Shown: positions 28,867-41,555, numbered from the stretch's first letter. The stretch is DNA of 59,874 nucleotides from an uncultured Armatimonadota bacterium (GCA_903899015.1 CAIUHP010000083.1:1-59874); one strand, 5' to 3'. Made by a program: numbers and translations. The notes: generated from the sequence alone by a model not told the origin.

Positions 28867-30585
28867 TCAAGTTAGTAAATTGGCCACGTCTCGGTTCGGG
28901 TGAACGGTGGAATCAAGATCGGCTTGGAACCTGGGGCAGGGCTCACTATCCGGTTTGACACTCGCGGTTACCCATCCATAACTCACTAAGGCCTCAAGTG
29001 ATTTGATAACTTGTGACCAGAAGAACCGATATTCCTCAACGGTCATCGCACCCGTTGCGTGTGCTTTAACTGCAGCTTTAATATCCGCATACGACTGCTC
29101 TTGCCGTAGCAATTTCGCGGTCCACCCCATGGTATTCACCATCGGGAGAGTGTGTTGACCTCGTCGGTATGACCGATATCTCGTTATTCGACCGTTCGAT
29201 AATTGAGCGACCCAGTCTTTGGTTGCGTCCTCGATTTCAAGTTTGAAGTGCGTTTTCCCCTCGATAGCGAAGAAAGCCTCCTCACCCGTAAAGGAGGAAA
29301 TGAGTTCTTTTGTAGCGAGTGAGCCAAAGAATCCGATATCCGTTCCACCGTTCGAATCGATAAACCCACCTTGACCGAGCCATTGCCAGGCTTGCTCCGG
29401 CGTCATGTCTAGCCCGGCATCACCGGCAATCGTTTGAGCGTGAACTCTAAGATCGGGGAATGCGCCATGGGCGGTATACCAATAATCGGCAAACCGGATG
29501 TGTTGACGAATATGTCCTCGGTGGTTGTGACTGTATTGGTCTCGAAGCCAGTCTGGTTCGAAGTCTCCTCGATCGAGAGCCAAGATCACGTATGCCACTT
29601 CCCGTGCTCCCGATTGAGACAAACTCATTCCCGCACTCAGGATTGGGTCCGCAAACCCGGCACACTCACCTGCCAAAAACCAATTTTCTCCCGCCAGTCG
29701 TTCGGCAACGTAGCTCCAGTCCTTGGTTGTCCGTACCGTATCCTCATGCGTGGCATTCTCAGTGAGCTTCGCAACGATCTTGTCGGAGGCGAGTGTTTCG
29801 TAATAGATCTCTTCTGGGCGCTTGTTCTGTTCCTTGTAGTAACTCGCGGGAAGAATCAGACCGATCGACGTTCGCTGGCGTCCAACGGGAATGAACCAGA
29901 TCCAACCGGTTTCCTGGGCCAGAATCTGTACGCGGGTACCGCCATAACCAATCGTCACTGCCCAATCAGCATCGTTCCAGTAATTCCAAATCGCGATGTT
30001 CTGTAAATTGGTCGGCTGATCCAGGGGGATCTCCATCGTTCGACGAAGAATCCCAGAGTTGCCACTAGCGTCGATGTAGTAACGGGCTCGAATGGTCGAT
30101 TCGTTACTTAGTACTAACCCTTCGACACGATCGCCATCCCGGAGCACTTCCCGTACGGAAGTTGATTCATAAACTTCGCATCCAAGGGATGCTGCATGCT
30201 TCAGTAGGATGTCGTCATAGATGGCACGATCGACTTGAAACGCTGTATTTTGCCGTTGGCCAGTAAAGGTTCCTGGCCGAGCCGTCGTGTTGAGTTTTCC
30301 ATCCTTGATGAAGTCGAAGTCCCACAGATCGTCGGTTCGCCCCCATCGGTATGTGCCTCCAACCTTGATAGGGAAGCCAGCCGCTTCTACCTTATCCCAT
30401 GCACCCATCTCGTGAAGGATTCGAGAAATGAGAGGAAGTTGGCTTTCGCCGACGTGTTCTCGTGGAAACTTCTCTCGTTCGATAACCGCTATTTTTAGCT
30501 TGGGGTCGTACTTTGCAAGCAACGATGCCGCTGTAGAGCCTGCTGGCCCTCCGCCAATAATGGCGACATCAAATTCACGATTCAT
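28867..30585 (-). CDS. FAD-dependent oxidoreductase of the flavin halogenase type
   Basis: 572 residues. The Rossmann motif GGGPAGSTAAS (11-21) is followed by IEREKFPREHVGES, and GWIWFIPVG (227-235) matches the W-x-W-x-I-P signature of flavin-dependent halogenases. The C-terminal third is an extra helical domain, as in CmlS/Chl-type enzymes. It would use FADH2, O2 and halide to halogenate an electron-rich substrate, or act as a related monooxygenase or geranylgeranyl-reductase-type enzyme. No flavin reductase or biosynthetic carrier protein is encoded nearby, so the substrate is unknown. TAGACT lies 6 nt before its ATG. Confidence 0.8.
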   Translation of the reverse strand: MNREFDVAIIGGGPAGSTAASLLAKYDPKLKIAVIEREKFPREHVGESQLPLISRILHEMGAWDKVEAAGFPIKVGGTYRWGRTDDLWDFDFIKDGKLNTTARPGTFTGQRQNTAFQVDRAIYDDILLKHAASLGCEVYESTSVREVLRDGDRVEGLVLSNESTIRARYYIDASGNSGILRRTMEIPLDQPTNLQNIAIWNYWNDADWAVTIGYGGTRVQILAQETGWIWFIPVGRQRTSIGLILPASYYKEQNKRPEEIYYETLASDKIVAKLTENATHEDTVRTTKDWSYVAERLAGENWFLAGECAGFADPILSAGMSLSQSGAREVAYVILALDRGDFEPDWLRDQYSHNHRGHIRQHIRFADYWYTAHGAFPDLRVHAQTIAGDAGLDMTPEQAWQWLGQGGFIDSNGGTDIGFFGSLATKELISSFTGEEAFFAIEGKTHFKLEIEDATKDWVAQLSNGRITRYRSYRRGQHTLPMVNTMGWTAKLLRQEQSYADIKAAVKAHATGAMTVEEYRFFWSQVIKSLEALVSYGWVTASVKPDSEPCPRFQADLDSTVHPNRDVANLLT

Positions 30586-30791: not shown

Positions 30792-30810
30792 TGGATAAGT
30801 GTGGTTAGCC

Positions 30811-31782
30811 ATGTTAAATACCCCTCGTCACGATAAGAAGTCTTCGGGCTTTACCTTAATCGAACTTTTGGTGGTAATTGCAATCATTGCAATTCTCGCC
30901 GCGATCCTTTTCCCGGTTTTCGCTCAAGCTAAACAGGCTGCGAAGAAGACTGTCGCAATTAGCGACATGAAGCAAGGAAGCTTGGCCGTCCAGATGTACC
31001 TCGGTGACTCCGACGATACTTTCCCACTTTCTGATAGTGGAAGCATCAACGGACCTGGTTGGGGCTTCGGACCTCCTGACACAGTTCCTTTCCAAGTACT
31101 TCAGCCATACTGCAAGAATACTCGGTTCGAAATCGATCCAATGGATCCTTGGCAAAGCGAAGATCAAAGAATCTCCGACCAGTGCCAATATATGGGATGC
31201 ACACTTGCCAACGCGACTGCCGTTCAAAAGGCATACGCTCTTGGCGTTCGCAGCAATATCGGTTACAACTTCGCTTTCTTTAGCCCTTGGATTTATCAAC
31301 TTCAAGGTGGCGGATTCTATATCGGCTCTGCTGCCATCAACTCGAGCCTAGTCACACAGCCTGCTCACACGCTCCTTTTCGCAACTTCGATTTGGAACCG
31401 CGTAGGTGGAGCACCGAGTGGCGGTGGAAACTGGGTCGTTCAGACTCCATGCTGGAAAGACTCTAACGGCGCACTTCTTCAGCCAATGTCGAATTTCCAG
31501 AACTATGCTGGAGCTGGACAAGTATATGGATATAGCAGTGGTTGGACTCCAAATCCCACCGCATGGAACGTCTATGGTGGCGTTTGGCCATTCTATAACC
31601 AGACTTCAAGCACTGCCGCAACTGGTGCGCAGAACGGTCAAGCTGTCATCGCGTTTGCTGATAGTCATGTGAAGACGATGCCAATTAGCCAAATCGCTGC
31701 GGGATGTTCCGCATACGGTGTTGGTGCTCTGGCAGGAAACGTTACCGATCCAACCAAGTTCATTTGGGCTCTCAATCAATGA
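30811..31782 (+). CDS. Pilin-like protein with canonical Gly-Phe prepilin site (copy 4)
   Basis: 323 residues from ATG 30811 (the frame also starts at GTG 30799). The leader MLNTPRHDKKSSG ends in the classical Gly before FTLIELLVV, unlike the other copies, which have Ala. The helix continues into FAQAKQAAKKTVAISDMKQGS. The long mature domain is rich in Gly, Asn, Trp and Tyr, with FADSHVKTMPIS near the end. The 225-bp upstream gap, the longest for any pilin here, carries a possible dedicated promoter. Its stop overlaps the ATG of a lipoprotein gene (ATGA, 31779-31782). Confidence 0.9.
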   Translation: MLNTPRHDKKSSGFTLIELLVVIAIIAILAAILFPVFAQAKQAAKKTVAISDMKQGSLAVQMYLGDSDDTFPLSDSGSINGPGWGFGPPDTVPFQVLQPYCKNTRFEIDPMDPWQSEDQRISDQCQYMGCTLANATAVQKAYALGVRSNIGYNFAFFSPWIYQLQGGGFYIGSAAINSSLVTQPAHTLLFATSIWNRVGGAPSGGGNWVVQTPCWKDSNGALLQPMSNFQNYAGAGQVYGYSSGWTPNPTAWNVYGGVWPFYNQTSSTAATGAQNGQAVIAFADSHVKTMPISQIAAGCSAYGVGALAGNVTDPTKFIWALNQ

Positions 31783-32048
31783 AACTAGGACTATTCTTAT
31801 CTTCATTCGTTCTCCTTGGTGCATGCGTAATTTGCGGATGTAACAAGGAAGAGGCCGCCACCAATGATCCAGCTCAAGATAATGCTTTCCAAAAGGAACT
31901 TGCAGATGCTGCAGCTAAGAACGGCGGGAAGTCTGCTCAGACTAATATGAAGAGGGAGTTACCTCCTGAAGTAACGGGTAAGGGCGGAGCCAAGCCATCG
32001 GCTAAAGCTCCTGAAGAAAAGCCCGGTGCAGACGGCGCTTCCAAATAG
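31779..32048 (+). CDS. Small lipoprotein coupled to pilin-like copy 4 (R-x-LPP family, member 1)
   Basis: 89 residues from ATG 31779: signal MKLGLFLSSFVLLGACVICGC with Cys21 as the lipidation site, then a hydrophilic and apparently disordered mature part. KRELPPEV lies before a Gly/Lys/Pro/Ala tail. The same R-x-L-P-P-[GE] motif occurs in the lipoproteins that follow copies 5 and 6. The 4-nt overlap with the pilin gene implies translational coupling. A strong terminator ends the two-gene unit. Confidence 0.75.
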   Translation: MKLGLFLSSFVLLGACVICGCNKEEAATNDPAQDNAFQKELADAAAKNGGKSAQTNMKRELPPEVTGKGGAKPSAKAPEEKPGADGASK

Positions 32049-32065
32049 GAACTAGTGACATGAAT

Positions 32066-32103
32066 AGGCGGAGCAACTAATTGAGGTTGTTCCGCCTTTT
32101 TTT
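32066..32103 (+). terminator. Rho-independent terminator of the pilin-lipoprotein pair
   Basis: AGGCGGAGCAAC (32066-32077) and GTTGTTCCGCCT (32086-32097) pair with one G-T, followed by a run of seven T. Confidence 0.9.
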
Positions 32104-32140: not shown

Positions 32141-34003
32141 CTATAGGAGATGGGCGAGTGGGCCCAAGTGCTCCCGATACTTTTGCCAACGGGCGACCGA
32201 AGTTCGATAGACGGGTTGACGTACCTGCCAAACACTCGGAGTGACAACCGTGCGTTCATTTCGGTGGGGACTTAAACAGGCGTCATCCCAATCCAAATTG
32301 CAGAATGCGATCATTTGTCGAGCTGCTGATTCTAGATCGGTCACTACATCCTCGTAGTTCAGCTCCATCAAAGTAGTTGCGGGGAGAACCTCTCTCCAGT
32401 GGTTCATCAACGACAAGTACTGTTCGTAGTTGAAAGTGATATTTGCCTTGTCGTTTGCCCAACTCATTCGAGTGCGATTGGGCGTCGTGTAAATCGATAG
32501 ACAAGTATCGACCGGATGGCGCTTGATGTGAATGATCTTAGATTGCGGGAAGGCAACGTGCAAGAGCCCCAATATCTCGTAGTTCATTGGCATCTTGTCG
32601 ACTATATAAGCCGAATCTTGATCAATGGATCGTAGCTGTTTAAGATATTTTTCCGTGAATTTGATCAACAGGCTCGAATTCAGCTCTCCGTTCGAAGACA
32701 AGAAGACATTTTGATTGTCCAGCCAGTAGCTTTGCTCACCAGCGGCACCTACGTTAGGATGGCTGGAGAGGATTTGCTCAATGAGGGTTGTTCCGGAGCG
32801 GATCATACCGACGACAAATATGGGAACCTTGGATGTCGAACCCAATTGGGTGTGATTCGCAAGAAACTCTCGACTATAGGTTTCCTTGATTTTGGCAAGC
32901 CGCGCCTGATCAACCCGACGATCAAATGCCTGTTCTCCAAATTTGATGCGATAGGCCAACTGGTTAGCCTCGTCAAAATGCTTCATCGCATCGGCGTAGT
33001 TGCCAATATCCTCGTTTGCCTTACCTAGTGCGTAATGAAGCTGGCTCAAATGCTCTGAAGAGAGTCCCATATTGCCCGTCAGCAACTCCATCTGCTGAAT
33101 AAGCTCGTGATTTTCGGACTTAACTTTTCGGTTTGAAACGAGAGCCAGGTAAGCATCGCCCTGGACGGGAGCTAACTCGATTGATTTGCGAAAATGAGCG
33201 TCCGCTTTGTCGAGATCTCCGTTCATCTGTTCGATGGATCCGACTAACGTGTGAGCTTCGGCACTTTTGAGAGATTCGCGGTCAATGGTCTCAAGCACCA
33301 TTGCGGCTTCATTTGCCCTGCTTGACTCCAACAGAATTCGTACCAACCAGAGTTTGGCTTCACTTGAAGAAGGAAGTAGTCGAACCACTGAACGCGCTTG
33401 GTCGATTGCTTCTGATAATCGGTGCTCTTCTAGAAGCAGATCTCGAAGCGCAATGAAAGTAGGCACTGAAGATGGATCCAGAGTCGCCGACTTCCTAAGT
33501 GCTTTGATCGCTTCTTCATTCCTTCGGAGACCTTTTTGCGCCATACCCGCGGAAAAGTGAACGATCGCCACAGCCGGAGCGACCGTGAGTACGCGGTGCA
33601 ATATCGCCAATGCTGATTCAAAATCACCGAGCGCAATGAGACATTGAGCTAGGTGATGTTGAGCAATCGGGTCGGAAGGGTTCAGTGCAACGGATTGCTT
33701 GGCGTGTTTCAACGCATCTTCTAAACTGCCGTCTTGCTGGAATGTCATCGATAGCCAGAGGTGGGCGGCAGCCGATCTTGGGTCAGCCGCGATCGCTCGG
33801 CTAAAGAATTGAATGGCGTCTTGAACCTGGTTGAGCTTTGAGCCGATCATTCCTCGCAGCACGAGAACGGGAACATTTCTGGGCAACGACTCCAAAATGA
33901 GATCGCACAATTTGGCGCTGACATCCAATCGTCCTTGTGAGTAAGCAATATTTGCTTGCTGCATCAATTGATCGAGATTCTGGTTGGGTTGCTCAGAGCT
34001 CAT
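32141..34003 (-). CDS. TPR-sulfotransferase (array copy 4)
   Basis: 620 residues, cytoplasmic by sequence. About ten tetratricopeptide-like helix pairs fill residues 10-380. A PAPS-dependent sulfotransferase domain follows. The 5'-phosphosulfate loop is VVGMIRSGTTLIE (398-409), AGEQSYW (421-427) aligns with the GEE of tyrosylprotein sulfotransferases whose Glu is the catalytic base (E423), and IIHIKRHPVDTCLS is the 3'-phosphate motif. The TPR part probably binds the acceptor. No PAPS synthesis genes are nearby. It lies 24 nt after array copy 3. Confidence 0.88.
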   Translation of the reverse strand: MSSEQPNQNLDQLMQQANIAYSQGRLDVSAKLCDLILESLPRNVPVLVLRGMIGSKLNQVQDAIQFFSRAIAADPRSAAAHLWLSMTFQQDGSLEDALKHAKQSVALNPSDPIAQHHLAQCLIALGDFESALAILHRVLTVAPAVAIVHFSAGMAQKGLRRNEEAIKALRKSATLDPSSVPTFIALRDLLLEEHRLSEAIDQARSVVRLLPSSSEAKLWLVRILLESSRANEAAMVLETIDRESLKSAEAHTLVGSIEQMNGDLDKADAHFRKSIELAPVQGDAYLALVSNRKVKSENHELIQQMELLTGNMGLSSEHLSQLHYALGKANEDIGNYADAMKHFDEANQLAYRIKFGEQAFDRRVDQARLAKIKETYSREFLANHTQLGSTSKVPIFVVGMIRSGTTLIEQILSSHPNVGAAGEQSYWLDNQNVFLSSNGELNSSLLIKFTEKYLKQLRSIDQDSAYIVDKMPMNYEILGLLHVAFPQSKIIHIKRHPVDTCLSIYTTPNRTRMSWANDKANITFNYEQYLSLMNHWREVLPATTLMELNYEDVVTDLESAARQMIAFCNLDWDDACLSPHRNERTVVTPSVWQVRQPVYRTSVARWQKYREHLGPLAHLL

Positions 34004-34027
34004 TAAGATTCGGTTCGTACAGGCTAA

Positions 34028-35893
34028 TTAAATGTCATCCAGAAGCTCGCGAAATTCTCCGAGCCAAGGTTCGTAATTCTTCCATCTCTGTTGGGACCGA
34101 ATATTGATCGGTTGACGAACTTGAAAAACGCTAGGTGTAAGAACTGTTCCGATATTGGCTTCCGGGGAATAACAGGCTTCTTCGTGATCCAATTCTAAGA
34201 AGTCAAGCATAGAATCAATGGTCGCCTTTGGCTGGCCCGTCAAATCTTCGTAATTAAACGTGGCAAATCGATCTGCGGGAAGCACTGACTCCCAATGTTT
34301 CCAGAGTCTGAGATACTCCCGATAGGCGAAAACGAGGTTTTCGCGCTTCGAGGCGTATGCTACGTTTCCGCTCATACGAGTCATCCATAAGGACAGCAAA
34401 TTGTCGACCGGGTGGCGTTTAAGGTGTACGAATTTGGCGTTTGGCAGAGCGCAGTGCAGCGAACCTGCGAGATCAAAATTCGCTGGGTTTTTGTCAACGA
34501 AGTAATGAATATCCTCTCGATGTGGGTCGACAAAGGCGAGATAGTCAGCTGCAAATTTCAACACCGTGTCATGGTCGTAATTGAGACCTTGATGATCGGT
34601 ATGGATAAACTCGATTGCACGCTCTGTCCAGAAGGATTGTTCGCCACCACCTACAACCTTCGAGTGGGCACTGAGGATCGTTTCAGTTAGGGTCGTTCCA
34701 GATCTCATCATGCCGACCACAAACAATGGAAGGTGGCTTGGCAATCCATCTTGAGTTAGTTTTTGAATAATATCGGGAGTGAAACTTGCGATCATCAAAT
34801 CCGTGATGGATTTCAATTGGCTTGTTTCGAAGTTGCGACGTAGAGGATAGATCTCGAGGCAATATTGGTTGGCAAGATCGAATTGCCCGATCGCTCGTTC
34901 GTAATCCTTGAGGTCATCGAAGCTCTTGCCTAACCCGTAGTGTAATTCTGAGAGTTCACCTGGGCTAAGCGAAGCGCTTTTGCCTGCTTCCACCATGCGT
35001 TCAATCAGGGGCAAATCCTCCTCCGTCATCTTTCGAGCTGTCGTCAAGATTTGGAAGGATGTGGGGACGTCAATGCCTCGATTGATGAGGTCGCCAAGAA
35101 GTCTTTGAGCAATCTCAAATCGTCCCGTTGCGATTTCTACTTTCGCTCGTTGCTGGGTTACCGAGATCTTATTGGGAGATAGCTGACTTGCGAGTTTCCA
35201 CCTGCTATCTGCCTCATCAAATTGTCGCATCATCGCTAATGACTCGGCGAATAACGCATGAGGAACGGCTTCCTTGGACATGTAAGGTTCAATGCCATGT
35301 AGAACATCGAGGGCCGCTTCGGGATGGCTTTCCTTCAAAAGGATTTTAGCTAGATCCACAGCCGCAGCCGGAGTGGGGCGAATGGATATGGCTTGTCGAT
35401 AGATTTCGATGGATAGCGCTGGCATACGAAGCGATTTCAGAATACGGGCTTTTAATACAAGGCAATCTACATCGTCAGGTTTGATGACAAGGGCCTTGTC
35501 GACCATCGTAAGTGCTTCATCAAACCTGTCTTGTGCACGTAGTGAACTGGACAGAAGATAGAAGGCCCGAAGGTTGTTGGGCGCGATTTGGGTAAGCCGC
35601 CGAGCATACATTTCGGCGTCGTCAAATCGGCGCATGTTCATGCAGACAAATGCGGCCGACCCGAGAGCGTCAGTCGAGTCTGGAGATGCTTCGAGGCTCT
35701 TAGTGAATGAATTGAGCGCCGATTCAAGATCACCGCTTGCCATCTGAATCATCCCTTGTGCCAATCGGATATCGGCTCGATCGGGATGGACTTTGGCAAG
35801 TCCTTCAATGAGCTGGCGTGCAGCGGGGATGTTGCCTCTCTGATATTCCGACTGCGCTTGAGCAATCTGGACGGCGATCGGATCGGCATTCAT
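34028..35893 (-). CDS. TPR-sulfotransferase (array copy 3)
   Basis: 621 residues from ATG 35893 (the frame also starts at TTG 35899). The TPR part is followed by FVVGMMRSGTTLTETIL, VGGGEQSFW, and FVHLKRHPVDNLLSLW. The acceptor-side loop NVAYASKRENLVFAYREY is closer to that of copy 4 (MSWANDKANITFNYEQY) than to copies 1 and 2, so copies 3 and 4 form one branch. The -10 TAGAAT is 6 nt from the chosen ATG and decides the start. The gene therefore has its own promoter within the array. Confidence 0.88.
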   Translation of the reverse strand: MNADPIAVQIAQAQSEYQRGNIPAARQLIEGLAKVHPDRADIRLAQGMIQMASGDLESALNSFTKSLEASPDSTDALGSAAFVCMNMRRFDDAEMYARRLTQIAPNNLRAFYLLSSSLRAQDRFDEALTMVDKALVIKPDDVDCLVLKARILKSLRMPALSIEIYRQAISIRPTPAAAVDLAKILLKESHPEAALDVLHGIEPYMSKEAVPHALFAESLAMMRQFDEADSRWKLASQLSPNKISVTQQRAKVEIATGRFEIAQRLLGDLINRGIDVPTSFQILTTARKMTEEDLPLIERMVEAGKSASLSPGELSELHYGLGKSFDDLKDYERAIGQFDLANQYCLEIYPLRRNFETSQLKSITDLMIASFTPDIIQKLTQDGLPSHLPLFVVGMMRSGTTLTETILSAHSKVVGGGEQSFWTERAIEFIHTDHQGLNYDHDTVLKFAADYLAFVDPHREDIHYFVDKNPANFDLAGSLHCALPNAKFVHLKRHPVDNLLSLWMTRMSGNVAYASKRENLVFAYREYLRLWKHWESVLPADRFATFNYEDLTGQPKATIDSMLDFLELDHEEACYSPEANIGTVLTPSVFQVRQPINIRSQQRWKNYEPWLGEFRELLDDI

Positions 35894-35899
35894 AATCAA

Positions 35900-35905
35900 A
35901 TTCTA
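35900..35905 (-). promoter_or_regulatory. -10 element of array copy 3
   Basis: TAGAAT on the minus strand, 6 nt before ATG 35893. Confidence 0.5.
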
Positions 35906-35974
35906 ACTGATTGCCTCAAAGTTCAGAGGCCACCCCCGAAAAACTGGTGATCCAGTAATTGAGCAAGTGGGCGA

Positions 35975-36445
35975 TCAATTGGTTCGCTTCAAGCGACTGA
36001 CTATCGAAATCCAAACGAAATAGACTTTGCATCCGACACAAACATTGGCAATGGCTTCAAGAAGGGCAAAGCATATGAGGATGGCGGCGAAGAGTTTTGC
36101 TGGTGTGGAGAGCCCAACCAGATGTAAGATGGTTATGAGTAAACACATTTGAAGTCCGATTCCAGCCGCGAATCGTTTCGGTTCAGCATTGACCAACTTA
36201 CCATTGGCTTGAAATGACTTTCGAATGGTATCAGCTAGCCACCTTACGACACTCAATCGAGCATTGCCGAATGATCGCATCCAAAAATCGATGGCGAGCA
36301 GGGCAGGCAGAAGCGGTGAACCAAAAAGTAAGTAAGTCGCCATTATCAAGGCCACTACGGTTGCCCCAATGCGAACCGTTATCTCATTCACTTGGGTGAG
36401 CCCCACCGGACATGATTCAAAAGATGTGGGTGGGTTCCGTTTCAT
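35975..36445 (-). CDS. DUF4395 membrane protein inside the sulfotransferase array
   Basis: From ATG 36445 the product has 156 residues. It begins with a Cys-Pro segment (FESCPVGLTQVNEITVRIGA), has hydrophobic helices at about 25-55 and 100-145, and contains IDFWMRSFGNARLS. CP-VNE-x-x-x-R and DF-x-R are features of DUF4395, a membrane family of unknown function sometimes beside thioredoxin-like or sulfur-handling proteins. The open frame runs to 36556 and would overlap the end of array copy 2, so the internal ATG is preferred. Its place between copies 2 and 3 suggests a link to sulfur or sulfate metabolism, which is inference only. Confidence 0.65.
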   Translation of the reverse strand: MKRNPPTSFESCPVGLTQVNEITVRIGATVVALIMATYLLFGSPLLPALLAIDFWMRSFGNARLSVVRWLADTIRKSFQANGKLVNAEPKRFAAGIGLQMCLLITILHLVGLSTPAKLFAAILICFALLEAIANVCVGCKVYFVWISIVSRLKRTN

Positions 36446-36521
36446 GGGGGATATTTCGAACAATTGTAATGGAAGGCAACGAAGATCAAATCTCTCAATC
36501 TTTAATACGGAATCTAATCTT

Positions 36522-38348
36522 CTAAATTTGGCAAAAACTGGTGAAGATTGAGCCATATACCTGTCGCTTGCCTATCGACGTGCGGTAGATCGGTTGCCGA
36601 GCTTGCCATCGGCTGGGCGTGTTGACGGAGCGAGCGTTTGCTTCATGACGAAGACAGTTTTCATCCCATGACAACTCTAAAAAATTCAAGACCGATTGAA
36701 TCGTCGGTTCGGGATCGGACACGAGCGATTCATAGTCCACCTCAAAAAAGTTTTCAGGTTCCAATGTAGTTCGCCAATGTTCCATGTACGTCAGATAAGC
36801 GCGATAGAAAGTGACGATGTTATCTTGATGATAGGCAAAATTCGGTCCTCCTGCGAAGAAGGTCGAAAAGATCGAAAGGCACGTGTCAAAGGGATCACGA
36901 CGAATGTGAATGATCTTCGCATTTGGAAAAGTGGCGCGAATCAAACCGATATTTCGATAGTTCAACGGCATCTTGTCCGTGAATCTGCCTGACTGATTTC
37001 CCCGATCTATGGAAAGGAGATAGTCGTGGGCAAGGAATTCCAGATCGGTTTGGGATGGTGCCTCATCGGCCCAACTTGCGTGCAAAGGGTTCGATCGATT
37101 ATTCCAAAAAGTGGCTTCACCCACAGCGCTGACAAGCGGATGGGAAGTTACAATTTGATCCAAAAGTGTGGTTCCGGACCGGATCATGCCAACGATGAAA
37201 ATGGGATCCTTGTTAGGCGTACCCGCAGGTCGGAGCTGCTCGAAAAATGTCCGAGTGAACCTTTCTTTGATTAAGTTAGGCTCCCTTTGTGTCCAGCCAG
37301 GATCAAAAGTTCGACACGCGGGATACAGGCGGTAGGCGATTTGATTGGCTTGAATCAAGCTTGCGGCTGCGAGTTCCCAAGCCTGATCGCGCTCGTGAAG
37401 TTTGGCGATGGCGTATGCAAGATGCATTTTGCCAGTATCGTCCAATGACGTATCGTCCATGATTTTCTGCGCAATCGGTAACAACGGTTGCGTATTCAAA
37501 GTGAACTGTCGTGCCTCGACTAAGCTCCGAATCGGTAATCCTTGAATCGGTTGGATCTCAAGGGAGCGTTCGATAATCGGGATGGAATCCTCAGATCTTC
37601 CTTCATCTTGAAGCCAAGTAGCATAACTGTTAGCAGCACTGTAACTTAGCGGTGCGATGGCTCTGAAGATCTTCTCGGCTTCGTCAGGACGCCCGAGACG
37701 ACCATAAGTGAGCGCAAGTGCTTCGGCAAGTGCCAGGGAATTTGGGTGAACTTGGAGACCTATCTGAATGGCTTCAAGCGCCTCACTCCAACGAGAAAGT
37801 TGCTGGAGTTGTTTGAAAACTTGCAGGTGGTTTTGAGCGAGATTGGGTTCAAGTTTGCGTGCCTGAACAAACGCCTGCAATGCTTCTTCACCCCGGTTTT
37901 GAAGTCTTAGGCACATCCCCAAGTTTGCGAAACCGGCCGCATTCTTCGGATCTTGTTCAATAGACCGGCGAAGATAATCTTCTGCCTCATCCCCACGCCC
38001 CAAAGAAATAAGGTTCGAACCCAGAAGATTGAGAGACTCGACATTTCCCGGTTCAATTTGAAGAACCTTGTTCAGAATTTCGATCGATACTTCAAAATTG
38101 CGCTGAGTACGACGAGCGACCGCGAGCCAGGTGAGCGCTTCGCGGTCCGATGAATTTAGACGGAGTGCCCGCTCAAGGTATTCCGCTCCGTAGCCGATTC
38201 GGTTGGTTTGAACGGCGATGATTCCCAAAAGAACATGGGCTTCGAAGCTTTGGGGATGGTCCTTGAGAATGGCTTGAAGTCGAACTTCCGCTTCACGAGA
38301 TTGGCCATTTTGAATCAGGGCGCGTATATCGTTTAGCATGAAACTCAT
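36522..38348 (-). CDS. TPR-sulfotransferase (array copy 2)
   Basis: 608 residues. TPR helices (for example ALQAFVQARKLEPNLAQ) precede the sulfotransferase domain with FIVGMIRSGTTLLDQIV, SAVGEATFW, and IIHIRRDPFDTCLSIFS. The catalytic-base position is a GEA rather than the GEQ of the other copies, but the Glu is kept. The loop NFAYHQDNIVTFYRAY matches copy 1 almost exactly. It starts 22 nt after copy 1 and probably shares its transcript. A TAGACT is also found 19 nt upstream of its ATG. Confidence 0.88.
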   Translation of the reverse strand: MSFMLNDIRALIQNGQSREAEVRLQAILKDHPQSFEAHVLLGIIAVQTNRIGYGAEYLERALRLNSSDREALTWLAVARRTQRNFEVSIEILNKVLQIEPGNVESLNLLGSNLISLGRGDEAEDYLRRSIEQDPKNAAGFANLGMCLRLQNRGEEALQAFVQARKLEPNLAQNHLQVFKQLQQLSRWSEALEAIQIGLQVHPNSLALAEALALTYGRLGRPDEAEKIFRAIAPLSYSAANSYATWLQDEGRSEDSIPIIERSLEIQPIQGLPIRSLVEARQFTLNTQPLLPIAQKIMDDTSLDDTGKMHLAYAIAKLHERDQAWELAAASLIQANQIAYRLYPACRTFDPGWTQREPNLIKERFTRTFFEQLRPAGTPNKDPIFIVGMIRSGTTLLDQIVTSHPLVSAVGEATFWNNRSNPLHASWADEAPSQTDLEFLAHDYLLSIDRGNQSGRFTDKMPLNYRNIGLIRATFPNAKIIHIRRDPFDTCLSIFSTFFAGGPNFAYHQDNIVTFYRAYLTYMEHWRTTLEPENFFEVDYESLVSDPEPTIQSVLNFLELSWDENCLRHEANARSVNTPSRWQARQPIYRTSIGKRQVYGSIFTSFCQI

Positions 38349-38370
38349 TTTAGGATGCGAAAGGGGAAGT

Positions 38371-40251
38371 CTATTCTGCGGACGCCCTGGAGACAGGGTG
38401 AGTGATCGAGCGCAACTCCAGCAATTTGCCTAACCACGGTTCAAACTTCCGCCATCGTTCAACTGATGCGGTGTTGACGGGCTGGCGAGCGGTCCACAGG
38501 CTTGGCGTGCTCACTTGGGAGCGGACCTGCTCATGGGTAAGACAGGCATCATCCCATTCTAGGCCGCAGAAAGGTAGCAGTTGGCGCAAGACTCGTTCCT
38601 TGTCGGATACTAGCTCCTCGTAATCGACCTCAATCATTTGCTCGGGCGAAATAACGGCCCGCCAGTGTTCCATGGTCCTGAGGTAAGCCCGGTAATACTC
38701 AAGAATGTTATCCTGATGATAGGCGAACTGGGTGCCGCTCCCTAGGAAAGTGGTGTAAATCGATAAGCAAGTGTCGAGTGGGCTCCTGCGCATGTGGATG
38801 AATTTGGCTCGCGGGAACACGCTGCTCATCAGACCAATGTGCATGAAGTTGGTTGGCATCTTGTCCGTGATTCGTCGAGAACCTCTGGTAGTTCCGTTCA
38901 GTACCGCCAAATAACGCTCTTCGAGCTCACGAAAATCGCCAGGTTGAGCACCTAATTCCATCAACCGTCGGTTGGCCCGTCCCGCGCTTATCTGCCAAAA
39001 CGGTTGCTCTCCCGCTGACTTCACATCAGGATGGGCTGCCAGAATCTGATCAAGCAAGGTCGTACCGGTCCGAATCATTCCCACAATGAAGATGGGCGTT
39101 TCGCTTTTTGAACCTAGTTTACGTAACCGATTAAGAGCGTCGGCAGAAAACAGCTCTCGAATCAGTTGCTGTTCTCGGTCGACAGCGGGGCCATCGTGAG
39201 TAATTTCTGAATTAAAAAGTTGATAGGCGATGCTGTTCGCTTGATCGTAATGATGCATCGCGGACTCAAAGTCTTTGCGTTGTTCAAAGGACTTTGCCAA
39301 TGCATATTGTAGAAACATCTTCTCGTCCAGGTTAATGGAGGCATTCTCAAGTAGTGGTTTGGCTTCTTCGATCAGCGAGCGGTTGTCGAGTTCGAAGCAT
39401 TTCGCGATCGTGAGGTTGTAATACGCTTGCCCCTGAAGTGGTTTCCTGCGGATGGACTCCTTTAAAACCGGAATGGAGGGTTCGAATTGGCCCTCTTCTT
39501 GTAGCCAGTGAGCATAAAGCGTGGCGGCGGCTGGGTCAGATGACATCGCTTTCTGGAAGAGACGGCTTGCTTGGTCCGCTTGACCGACTTTGCCGTACGT
39601 TGAGGCGAGCGCGAGTTGTAACTGGACTGATTGGGGATGTCTCGCCAATCCTTCCTCAAGAATAGGAAGCCCCTCACGCCAGTTGAGTTGGAGGCGCATT
39701 TGATGCCAAAGCTCAACGTAAGCATCAACAAAGTTCGGATTGAGCTCGATGGAGCGTTGAAAGGTAGTGAAAGTTTCGAAAGAGCTGCCCGCAGACTTGA
39801 GTGCCATTCCAAGGTTAAAGTAGCTGTGAGCAGCATTTCGATCCATCTCGATGGCTCGCTTGAAGGCGCTACTCGCTGAAACATAATCACCAAGCTGAAG
39901 GTAACAGGACCCGAGTTGATTTTGAACATCGGCAGATTCATGTCCAGATGCGATCATGAGCCTGAACATGGATGCGGCGCCATTTGGGTCGGACTTTGCC
40001 AGGCAAATCACAGCGAGCAGCCCCATCGGTTCCGCGGCTTGGGGATGTTTCTCGTGAACCTCTCGAAGGATGGATTCAGCTTCGTCAAGTCTGCCTGACT
40101 TTAGCAACACGACGCCCAACATCGACAGTGCGGAGCTGTTTTGCGGATCGAGTTTAAGAGCCTGTCGTAACTGAAGTTCGGCGGCTTGAATCTGATTGGC
40201 CCGAAGAAGCTGTTGGGCAGCAAGCAGGTGTGTCGATAGAGTCGAAGACAT
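38371..40251 (-). CDS. TPR-sulfotransferase (array copy 1)
   Basis: 626 residues from ATG 40251. The open frame reaches 40413 but would run into the upstream lipoprotein gene, and a TAGACT 8 nt before the chosen ATG, with lengths equal to the other copies, settles the start. TPR units (LDPQNSSALSMLGVVLLKSG and others) lead to FIVGMIRTGTTLLDQIL, SAGEQPFW and FIHMRRSPLDTCLSIY. Note Thr for Ser in the MIRTGTT loop. FAYHQDNILEYYRAY links it to copy 2. It is the first gene of the array after the pilin-lipoprotein pair. Confidence 0.88.
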   Translation of the reverse strand: MSSTLSTHLLAAQQLLRANQIQAAELQLRQALKLDPQNSSALSMLGVVLLKSGRLDEAESILREVHEKHPQAAEPMGLLAVICLAKSDPNGAASMFRLMIASGHESADVQNQLGSCYLQLGDYVSASSAFKRAIEMDRNAAHSYFNLGMALKSAGSSFETFTTFQRSIELNPNFVDAYVELWHQMRLQLNWREGLPILEEGLARHPQSVQLQLALASTYGKVGQADQASRLFQKAMSSDPAAATLYAHWLQEEGQFEPSIPVLKESIRRKPLQGQAYYNLTIAKCFELDNRSLIEEAKPLLENASINLDEKMFLQYALAKSFEQRKDFESAMHHYDQANSIAYQLFNSEITHDGPAVDREQQLIRELFSADALNRLRKLGSKSETPIFIVGMIRTGTTLLDQILAAHPDVKSAGEQPFWQISAGRANRRLMELGAQPGDFRELEERYLAVLNGTTRGSRRITDKMPTNFMHIGLMSSVFPRAKFIHMRRSPLDTCLSIYTTFLGSGTQFAYHQDNILEYYRAYLRTMEHWRAVISPEQMIEVDYEELVSDKERVLRQLLPFCGLEWDDACLTHEQVRSQVSTPSLWTARQPVNTASVERWRKFEPWLGKLLELRSITHPVSRASAE

Positions 40252-40369: not shown

Positions 40370-40594
40370 CTACTGCGGAGGAGTAGCTCCGGGTGGCAAC
40401 CGTCGATGAGCACGTGCTCTGTCGGCTCCTATTTTGTCGGCCGCCGTGTTGCCGGTGTCGATGTATTTGCTGTTGCTTGTGTTGGTAGGAGCGGGTTCTT
40501 TATCACCGCAACCTGTGATCGCCATCCCGGCGACCCCAACAACGAGCCCTGCAAGAAGCATCGAAAGCGAAGAGAAGGAAGGTTTGAATCTCAT
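40370..40594 (-). CDS. Small lipoprotein after pilin-like copy 5 (R-x-LPP family, member 2)
   Basis: 74 residues: a long signal with lipobox at GMAITGC, then a hydrophilic mature peptide of about 45 residues ending RRLPPGATPPQ. No folded domain is apparent. It starts 1 nt after the pilin gene stop, so the pair is cotranscribed and probably translationally coupled. The LPPG end is shared with the lipoproteins at 31779 and 45548. Confidence 0.7.
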   Translation of the reverse strand: MRFKPSFSSLSMLLAGLVVGVAGMAITGCGDKEPAPTNTSNSKYIDTGNTAADKIGADRARAHRRLPPGATPPQ

Positions 40595-40595
40595 C

Positions 40596-41555
40596 CTATT
40601 CGCTCATAGTGAAGTACGTCATGAAGTAGTAACCACCAGGGCTCTGCGTGACGTAGTTCAATGGATTGCGTGTGATGTGCTTGGAATGTCCATCAGCAAA
40701 GGCATAATTTCCGCCGCCGGTGTGAACCGCGCTTCCACCACCCGGGAACGTGTACAGAACGAAGACAGGAACTCCACCCGCCGAATTTTGTTGAACTTGG
40801 GTTTCTCCGTCCGAAGCCACAACTGTTTCAGCTGGACGAGCAATTGAAGTAAGGCTATTGTTTGTTGCGAATTGACCACTCCAAACCGCGCCCTGAGCGC
40901 TCTGTAAGGTACCGGGAACGCCTGGCCCGTTACCAGGAGGGTTCATACAAGGATTCGTAGCTGAACCCGATGGTCCGGAGGTTCCACCAGCTTGTCCGGT
41001 ACCGTCACCGGGGCAGCCAGCCGCGGATGCACCGTATTTGCCGCCATCATATAGCCACGAGATATAGTCATGCAGACCACCGAAACCCGTCGTCGCGTAG
41101 GCGTAATCGGCCAGAGTTGTGAATCCCGGCCGGCCGGCGTAGTCGTATCCAGGATAGACCGCGCTGTTGTTCAGAGACGCAATACTTGCACCAGGATCGT
41201 GCATGACACCCGTTCCAAATTGCTGCTGATACTGGGCGACCGTGACATTGCCGCTCTTTACGTAGGGTTGGAGCAAGTCATTCCAGAAACTTAATGGCTG
41301 AGCGTTTCCGGCGGCAGTTGTTTCCCAAGACGAAGGTGTCAGGGTGTAGGAAGGCATAACTTGGTCGTCAACGTCAGCGGAGTACATAAGACCGCCCACG
41401 CCGATTTGCTTGGTATTGCTCAAGCAAGCAGTGGATTTTGCTGCTGCTTTTGCTTGTGCGAACACAGGGAAGAGGATGGCAGCTAGAATCGCGATAATAG
41501 CGATAACGACTAGAAGCTCGATAAGCGTGAATGCTTTGCGTGTGCTTGTTTTCAT
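40596..41555 (-). CDS. Pilin-like protein with type IV prepilin N-terminus (copy 5)
   Basis: 319 residues: leader MKTSTRKA, invariant helix, [21 protein letters not shown]. The mature domain is rich in Gly, Ser and Tyr with a [14 protein letters not shown] stretch, several Cys (possible disulfides) and the late motif [13 protein letters not shown]. First gene in the co-oriented series pilin, lipoprotein, TPR-sulfotransferase copies. No ribosome binding site is obvious before the ATG. Confidence 0.9.

Follow-up and report, generated by a model that had tools for sequence, protein, structure and literature searches.

The window, a stretch of 59,874 nucleotides from an uncultured Armatimonadota bacterium (GCA_903899015.1, CAIUHP010000083.1), holds a row of four sulfotransferase (ST) genes at positions 32141-40251, labelled c1 to c4. 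Their products are members of the known bacterial TPR-Sulfotransfer_3 family, in which tetratricopeptide repeats (TPR) are joined to a sulfotransferase domain, and they have an active site like that of the tyrosylprotein sulfotransferases (TPSTs). The row is the meeting point of two older modules, each with its own pseudopilin gene, and in the genus such TPR-STs lie beside pseudopilins far more often than expected. From the computed fold, catalytic residues, co-occurrence with donor synthesis and pilin linkage, we tentatively suggest that c1 to c4 are TPST-like enzymes dependent on 3′-phosphoadenosine-5′-phosphosulfate (PAPS) and dedicated to individual pseudopilins, a reading to which we give somewhat less than an even chance.

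The window is contig C83 of its source genome (4.94 Mb, 99.9% complete), and the source organism, a soil bacterium, appears to belong to the genus Fimbriimonas (Armatimonadota). The genus was sampled with 20 genomes, 11 of which bear STs. TPR-STs were located in these 11 by open reading frame (ORF) calling and a domain hidden Markov model, giving 107 genes in 86 loci. Simple ORF rules were used for gene calling, and pilins were recognised by motif. Several genomes are fragmented and contig ends cut some loci.

The sulfotransferase row

All four genes are intact ORFs on the minus strand: c1 at 32141..34003 (620 aa), c2 at 34028..35899 (623 aa from TTG, or 621 aa from an in-frame ATG at 35893), c3 at 36522..38348 (608 aa) and c4 at 38371..40251 (626 aa; a longer form starting from GTG would run into a small lipoprotein gene). 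Each combines TPR repeats and a PF13469 domain in one protein, the domain scoring 132.6, 119, 147.6 and 157.4 bits, respectively, against a cut-off of 27. The original prediction of four co-oriented genes of 608-626 residues, with TPR repeats and a PAPS-binding sulfotransferase domain, described them correctly. It also called them four tandem paralogues. They are indeed paralogues in one row, but a DUF4395 gene (35975..36556, minus strand; PF14340, 101.6 bits) lies between c2 and c3. Pairwise identity among the four proteins is 25-38%. Since a simple scan found no signal or strongly hydrophobic segment in any of them, they are predicted to be cytosolic.

The source genome has 10 loci with 15 TPR-ST genes, and the c1 to c4 row is the largest array in the 11 genomes. 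Three more, far more distant PF13469 proteins are encoded in the source genome away from the TPR-ST loci (G000:C43:66904, C81:46497 and C28:140115).

Catalytic residues and predicted fold

The catalytic set of TPST2 consists of R78, E99, K158 and S285 (PMC5562738). Its base is E99, which stands at R78+21 and is the last residue of a GEE triplet. In c1 to c4 a single Glu, within GEQ in c1, c2 and c4 and within GEA in c3, stands 21 residues after the loop Arg, without a gap in the HMMER alignment. Because both are at Arg+21, this Glu is equivalent to E99 although the triplets are offset by one. The original prediction had placed GEQ and GEA at the position of GEE; its letters and its TPST-like catalytic Glu were right, and only the register of the triplets was not. 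The Lys counterpart lies in DK[MN]P. The Ser stands seven residues before a QP motif, as S286 of TPST1 stands seven before KP, a match placed by hand where the alignment program had put a gap. The resulting sets are R402, E423, K470 and S590 in c1, R399, E420, K470 and S590 in c2, R390, E411, K459 and S579 in c3, and R394, E415, K464 and S584 in c4. All four residues are invariant in the family alignment.

The Glu was present in 118 of the 118 relatives having the loop, and was followed by L in 44, Q in 43, P in 7 and other letters in the remainder. Judged from the sequences, the TPST-like Glu is a family trait and the Q or A beside it occupies a free position. Since the Glu is universal and its neighbour varies freely, the GEQ/GEA difference is no evidence of divided acceptor specificities, and we rejected it as a specificity signal. 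For an acceptor hypothesis, the pilin linkage is the more concrete basis.

An AlphaFold2 model of c4 was confident, with a predicted local distance difference test score of 89. The best structural matches of its domain (residues 381-624) were TPST1 (Z 25.3), TPST2 (24.4) and tick TPST (24.1), with 243 residues aligned at about 2.6 Å; next among the sulfotransferases listed came an olefin synthase ST (Z 19.0). TPST1 and TPST2 were also the best solved relatives by sequence, and the TPR part matched the TPR of O-GlcNAc transferase. The fold of the model and the register of the alignment agree, and both are compatible with a Glu of GEQ that lies near PAPS; to that extent nothing spoke for a placement away from PAPS, which would have refuted the original prediction.

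Linkage to pseudopilins

Loci were counted as linked when a pseudopilin lay within 3 kb of the ST locus. This was so at 64 of the 86 loci, against 12.8 expected from pilin density (the count used for the source genome was 80 pilins). In 36 of the 64 the pilin lies upstream of the ST in the same orientation. When STs that were reciprocal best matches between two genomes were compared, the pilin was kept in 78 of 87 cases (90%) and a halogenase-like FAD (flavin adenine dinucleotide) enzyme in 48 of 51 (94%), whereas other neighbours were kept in 61 of 507 (12%); loci recur across these comparisons, which lack independence, and the ratio weighs more than a p-value. When each linked pilin was compared with the pilins in the loci fetched from the partner genome, those of orthologous STs proved to be mutual best matches in 56 of 62 pairs, where 11 would be expected; of the six exceptions, four come from loci that have more than one pilin. 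Median conservation was 71% for the pilins and 51% for their STs.

Two pilins flank the row in the window. Pseudopilin A (40596..41555, minus strand, 319 aa) scored 32 bits for PF07963 and has the HX9DG motif. Pseudopilin B (30799..31782, plus strand, 327 aa, C-terminus KFIWALNQ) scored 39.8 bits. Both have the prepilin N-terminal methylation motif, with PF07963 and TIGR02532 above cut-off. Transcription of the minus strand would run from pilin A through a lipoprotein of 74 residues, c4, c3, the DUF4395 gene and c2 to c1. Facing this row on the plus strand are pilin B, a small lipoprotein and a terminator-like hairpin (32066..32097; 13-pair stem and T run) closing the pilin B unit, with the FAD enzyme beyond. 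Promoter and terminator scans of the region gave matches no more numerous than in shuffled sequence.

Arg depletion in the linked pilins was also considered. It was strong against ST-less genomes (p 2e-9) but did not hold up when the linked pilins were set against the unlinked ones of their own genome (p 0.05 and 0.33), and is probably a matter of base composition.

History of the four copies

In a tree of 118 domains c1 to c4 fell into four separate orthologue groups, and a smaller, more careful tree concurred. Approximately unbiased (AU) tests, which are conditional on their model and were applied to groupings fixed beforehand by the original prediction, rejected all four together (p 4e-6), c1 with c2 (p 2e-5) and c3 with c4 (p 2.6e-12). 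The two duplications once thought likely are thereby contradicted: the copies do belong to one family, but they are not recent duplicates. Nor do acceptor loops pair the copies two by two. FAYHQDN is common to c4 and c3, while c2 (YASKRENL) and c1 (WANDKANI) differ.

The orthologue of c1 is 6620 of locus L101 in genome G013. Those of c2 are L101 8487, L117 6196, L129 8904 and one in L143, those of c3 are L121 331 and L111 7303, and those of c4 are L111 9135 and L121 2180. In G004 (L111) and G005 (L121) the c4 and c3 orthologues are adjacent genes preceded by the same pilin, so that the counterpart of pilin A adjoins the same two STs. The c1 and c2 orthologues of G013 (L101) have an order identical to that of the window: FAD enzyme (-), pilin (+), ST (-), ST (-). 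Counterparts of pilin B were found in L101, L129 and L143. As the orthologues occur in these layouts in sibling species, the four-gene row marks where two older modules meet, and the DUF4395 gene lies at their seam. Module A consists of pilin (40596), c4 and c3, and module B of FAD enzyme, pilin (30799), c1 and c2. The four genes are one family that diverged before these species split.

Other copies in the genus may have had other histories. The ST at 6851-8707 of L132 (G018:C73) grouped with proteobacterial and planctomycete relatives and has no pilin near; it is possibly a separate acquisition. PF13469 matched in two pieces within one open frame at G013:C123:12282-12812 and C72:12769-13311, and likewise at G004:C52:144557-145069 and 241611-242129. 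These are possibly diverged or decaying copies.

Supply of the sulfate donor

PF13469 proteins were found in 11 of the 20 genomes and were absent from 9. Adenosine 5′-phosphosulfate (APS) kinase, the source of PAPS, is encoded in exactly the same 11 genomes and in none of the other nine (Fisher 6e-6). A phylogenetically independent test of this association did not reach significance, the changes being too few. In five of the six genomes that have one or few copies (G011, G008, G014, G015 and G002), CysD and CysN/C are encoded close to a TPR-ST and a pilin; in the sixth, the fragmented G007 (77% complete), CysN/C and ST are on separate contigs. G008, which bears this CysD-CysN/C-pilin-ST cassette, has three PF13469 proteins, all of them TPR-STs. 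In the source genome CysD and CysN/C are encoded away from the window. Copy number of TPR-STs across Fimbriimonas is 0-39 per genome, with 14-39 in one subclade that includes the source genome.

A conserved C-terminal acceptor Tyr was considered but found no support, as the tail Tyr of the cassette pilins varies (FWGAYW, FWGAPW, FWGASW). In G039 (L074, L075), from another family of the same order, APS kinase is encoded near several PF13469 proteins that are shorter and of another type, and no pilin is nearby.

Lipoproteins, flavoenzymes and other neighbours

The lipoprotein gene between pilin A and c4 (40370..40594, minus strand, 74 aa) was read from its sequence, with lipobox AITGC, and has counterparts in L111 and L121. 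That of module B (31764..32048, plus strand, 94 aa) was found by the lipobox rule directly 3′ of pilin B, and has counterparts in L129 and L143. Such a gene directly follows 39 of 68 linked pilins and 14 of 49 unlinked ones (Fisher 0.003). These genes are very small (48-108 residues), and several of their products, including that of module B, contain no tyrosine. The small lipoprotein was rejected as a defining partner because unlinked pilins are also followed by such genes.

The FAD enzyme of module B (28867..30585, minus strand, 572 aa; PF04820, 124 bits) resembles flavin-dependent halogenases. It has the motifs GGGPAG (GxGxxG), WIWFIP (WxWxIP), FADPILSAG and FPIKVGG (with the conserved Lys). 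Its best NCBIfam match was CmlS, and QhpG also matched; as both were below cut-offs, a hydroxylase role is also compatible. WxWxI[PA] was present in 33 of 37 relatives, with an FPIK-type Lys in those read, and L101 has the enzyme in the same place. Halogenase-like enzymes occurred within 3 kb at 22 ST loci, against 2.3 expected with PF04820 densities assumed for genomes without a PF04820 search. The family is amplified in the genus, within TPR-ST pilin modules, with up to 3-4 genes per locus (L025, L125, L081, L089, L115). Three loci of the source genome (L180, L190, L200) have an FAD enzyme adjoining a pseudopilin and no ST near, so the pairing of flavoenzyme and pilin also occurs independently of TPR-STs. 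Among the few other conserved neighbours, GntR-like regulators, labelled from their N-terminal sequence, recur at modules (L025, L026, L064, L068, L087, L118).

Proposed function and alternatives

In the mechanism that we propose, CysD and CysN/C would make PAPS and the TPST-like domain would bind it. The TPR superhelix may serve as a protein-recognition arm, as in O-GlcNAc transferase, holding an extended part of the unexported prepilin or, alternatively, a factor made with the prepilin. The conserved Arg, Lys and Ser would handle the donor, and the Glu, as base, would take the proton of the acceptor. Sulfate would then pass to an acceptor hydroxyl, most likely that of a tyrosine, and the sulfated pilin would be exported. 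Under this scheme c4 and c3 would serve pilin A, and c1 and c2 pilin B, each pilin family having its own enzyme or pair, and a further aromatic residue of pilin B may be the target of the halogenase-like enzyme in its module. Tyrosine as acceptor, the pilin as substrate, the cytosolic timing and the role of the flavoenzyme are what we infer here.

Several points weigh against this scheme. Pilins are usually exported early, which would leave little time in the cytosol. No pilin lies within 3 kb at 22 of the 86 loci of the genus, and none was found near 12 TPR-ST loci from other phyla. Among the tyrosines of the linked pilins, none stands out. The Tyr content of these pilins is slightly raised, at 6.45% versus 5.38% (p 0.003 when compared with the source genome's unlinked pilins), and the enrichment is not significant within the source genome alone. 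Presence of APS kinase and STs changes about four times on the rpoB tree, and the genomes do not represent 20 independent events.

The slight Tyr enrichment without an acceptor Tyr in the linked pilins, and the relatives outside the genus that lack a linked pilin, would also fit a surface glycan, a lipid or a secondary metabolite as the acceptor of the TPR-STs, with pilin, lipoprotein and FAD enzyme sharing an envelope or attachment trait. Much of the fold is also found in sulfotransferases for other acceptors, such as the olefin synthase ST (Z 19). We nevertheless regard this explanation as unlikely, if worth keeping in mind: other sulfotransferases match less well than the TPSTs in fold and catalytic set, the one-to-one pairing of ST and pilin families exceeds what a shared trait needs, and no glycosyltransferase cluster was present among the conserved neighbours listed. 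The sulfated molecule could instead be a different protein, such as the small lipoprotein or a partner whose gene lies elsewhere, with the pilin only exporting or displaying it. The excess of lipoprotein genes behind linked pilins agrees with this, and a TPR arm suits protein partners generally; however, many linked loci have no lipoprotein gene by the rule used and several lipoproteins are tyrosine-free, and we consider it improbable. Adjacency by chance, of two kinds of gene that both multiply by duplication, would account for a copy number of 0-39 within one genus and for the apparently split copies in G013 and G004. It is hard to reconcile with module-mates that persist at 90-94% when other neighbours persist at 12%, with 64 linked loci where 12.8 are expected, or with an APS kinase that tracks ST presence, and is very improbable.

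Extended to the genus, sulfation of pilins by dedicated enzymes would amount to a Fimbriimonas pseudopilin-decoration system, in which dozens of pilins each have a TPR-guided tyrosine ST and sometimes a halogenase-like flavoenzyme, placing sulfotyrosine and perhaps halogenated aromatics on filaments. We put this wider proposal forward with rather more hesitation than that for the four genes. If true, it would be a large, substrate-dedicated bacterial sulfation system on surface filaments. It would also assign an acceptor class to one or more branches of the widespread TPR-sulfotransferases, and provide TPR-armed enzymes for directed sulfation.

Comparison with known systems

A non-exhaustive literature search of one open library found no description of a module of pseudopilin, small lipoprotein, TPR-ST and, often, halogenase-like flavoenzyme, and nothing relevant on pilins together with tyrosine sulfation. 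TPST1, TPST2 and tick TPST share with c1 to c4 the domain fold (Z 24-25), the 5′-phosphosulfate-binding (5′-PSB) loop and the counterparts of R78, E99, K158 and S285. Unlike TPST1 and TPST2, the bacterial proteins have no Golgi anchor and are fused to a TPR superhelix; their domain is 22% identical and their activity is predicted. O-GlcNAc transferase also carries a TPR superhelix ahead of a protein-modifying catalytic domain, although that domain and its donor differ.

Few bacterial protein-tyrosine sulfotransferases are known, and RaxST of Xanthomonas (raxX-raxSTAB) is the standing example. This enzyme, which has been modelled on TPST2, works in the cytosol with PAPS as donor, and the tyrosine is modified ahead of export (PMC6637879). 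In contrast to c1 to c4, no TPR domain is reported for RaxST, and its target is a small peptide with an exporter alongside; Pfam and NCBIfam scans of the neighbours in the window found no RaxX-type precursor peptide with an ATP-binding cassette (ABC) exporter. Flavin-dependent halogenases are marked by GxGxxG, WxWxIP and a conserved Lys (PMC5945002), all present in the FAD enzyme of module B. That enzyme is encoded beside pilins and not in a natural-product cluster, and halogenation by it is putative. The TPR-Sulfotransfer_3 proteins of Planctomycetes and Proteobacteria (L009-L020) have the same architecture and invariant residues as c1 to c4. None of their 12 loci has a pseudopilin near, whereas the Fimbriimonas members of the family are amplified and pilin-linked.

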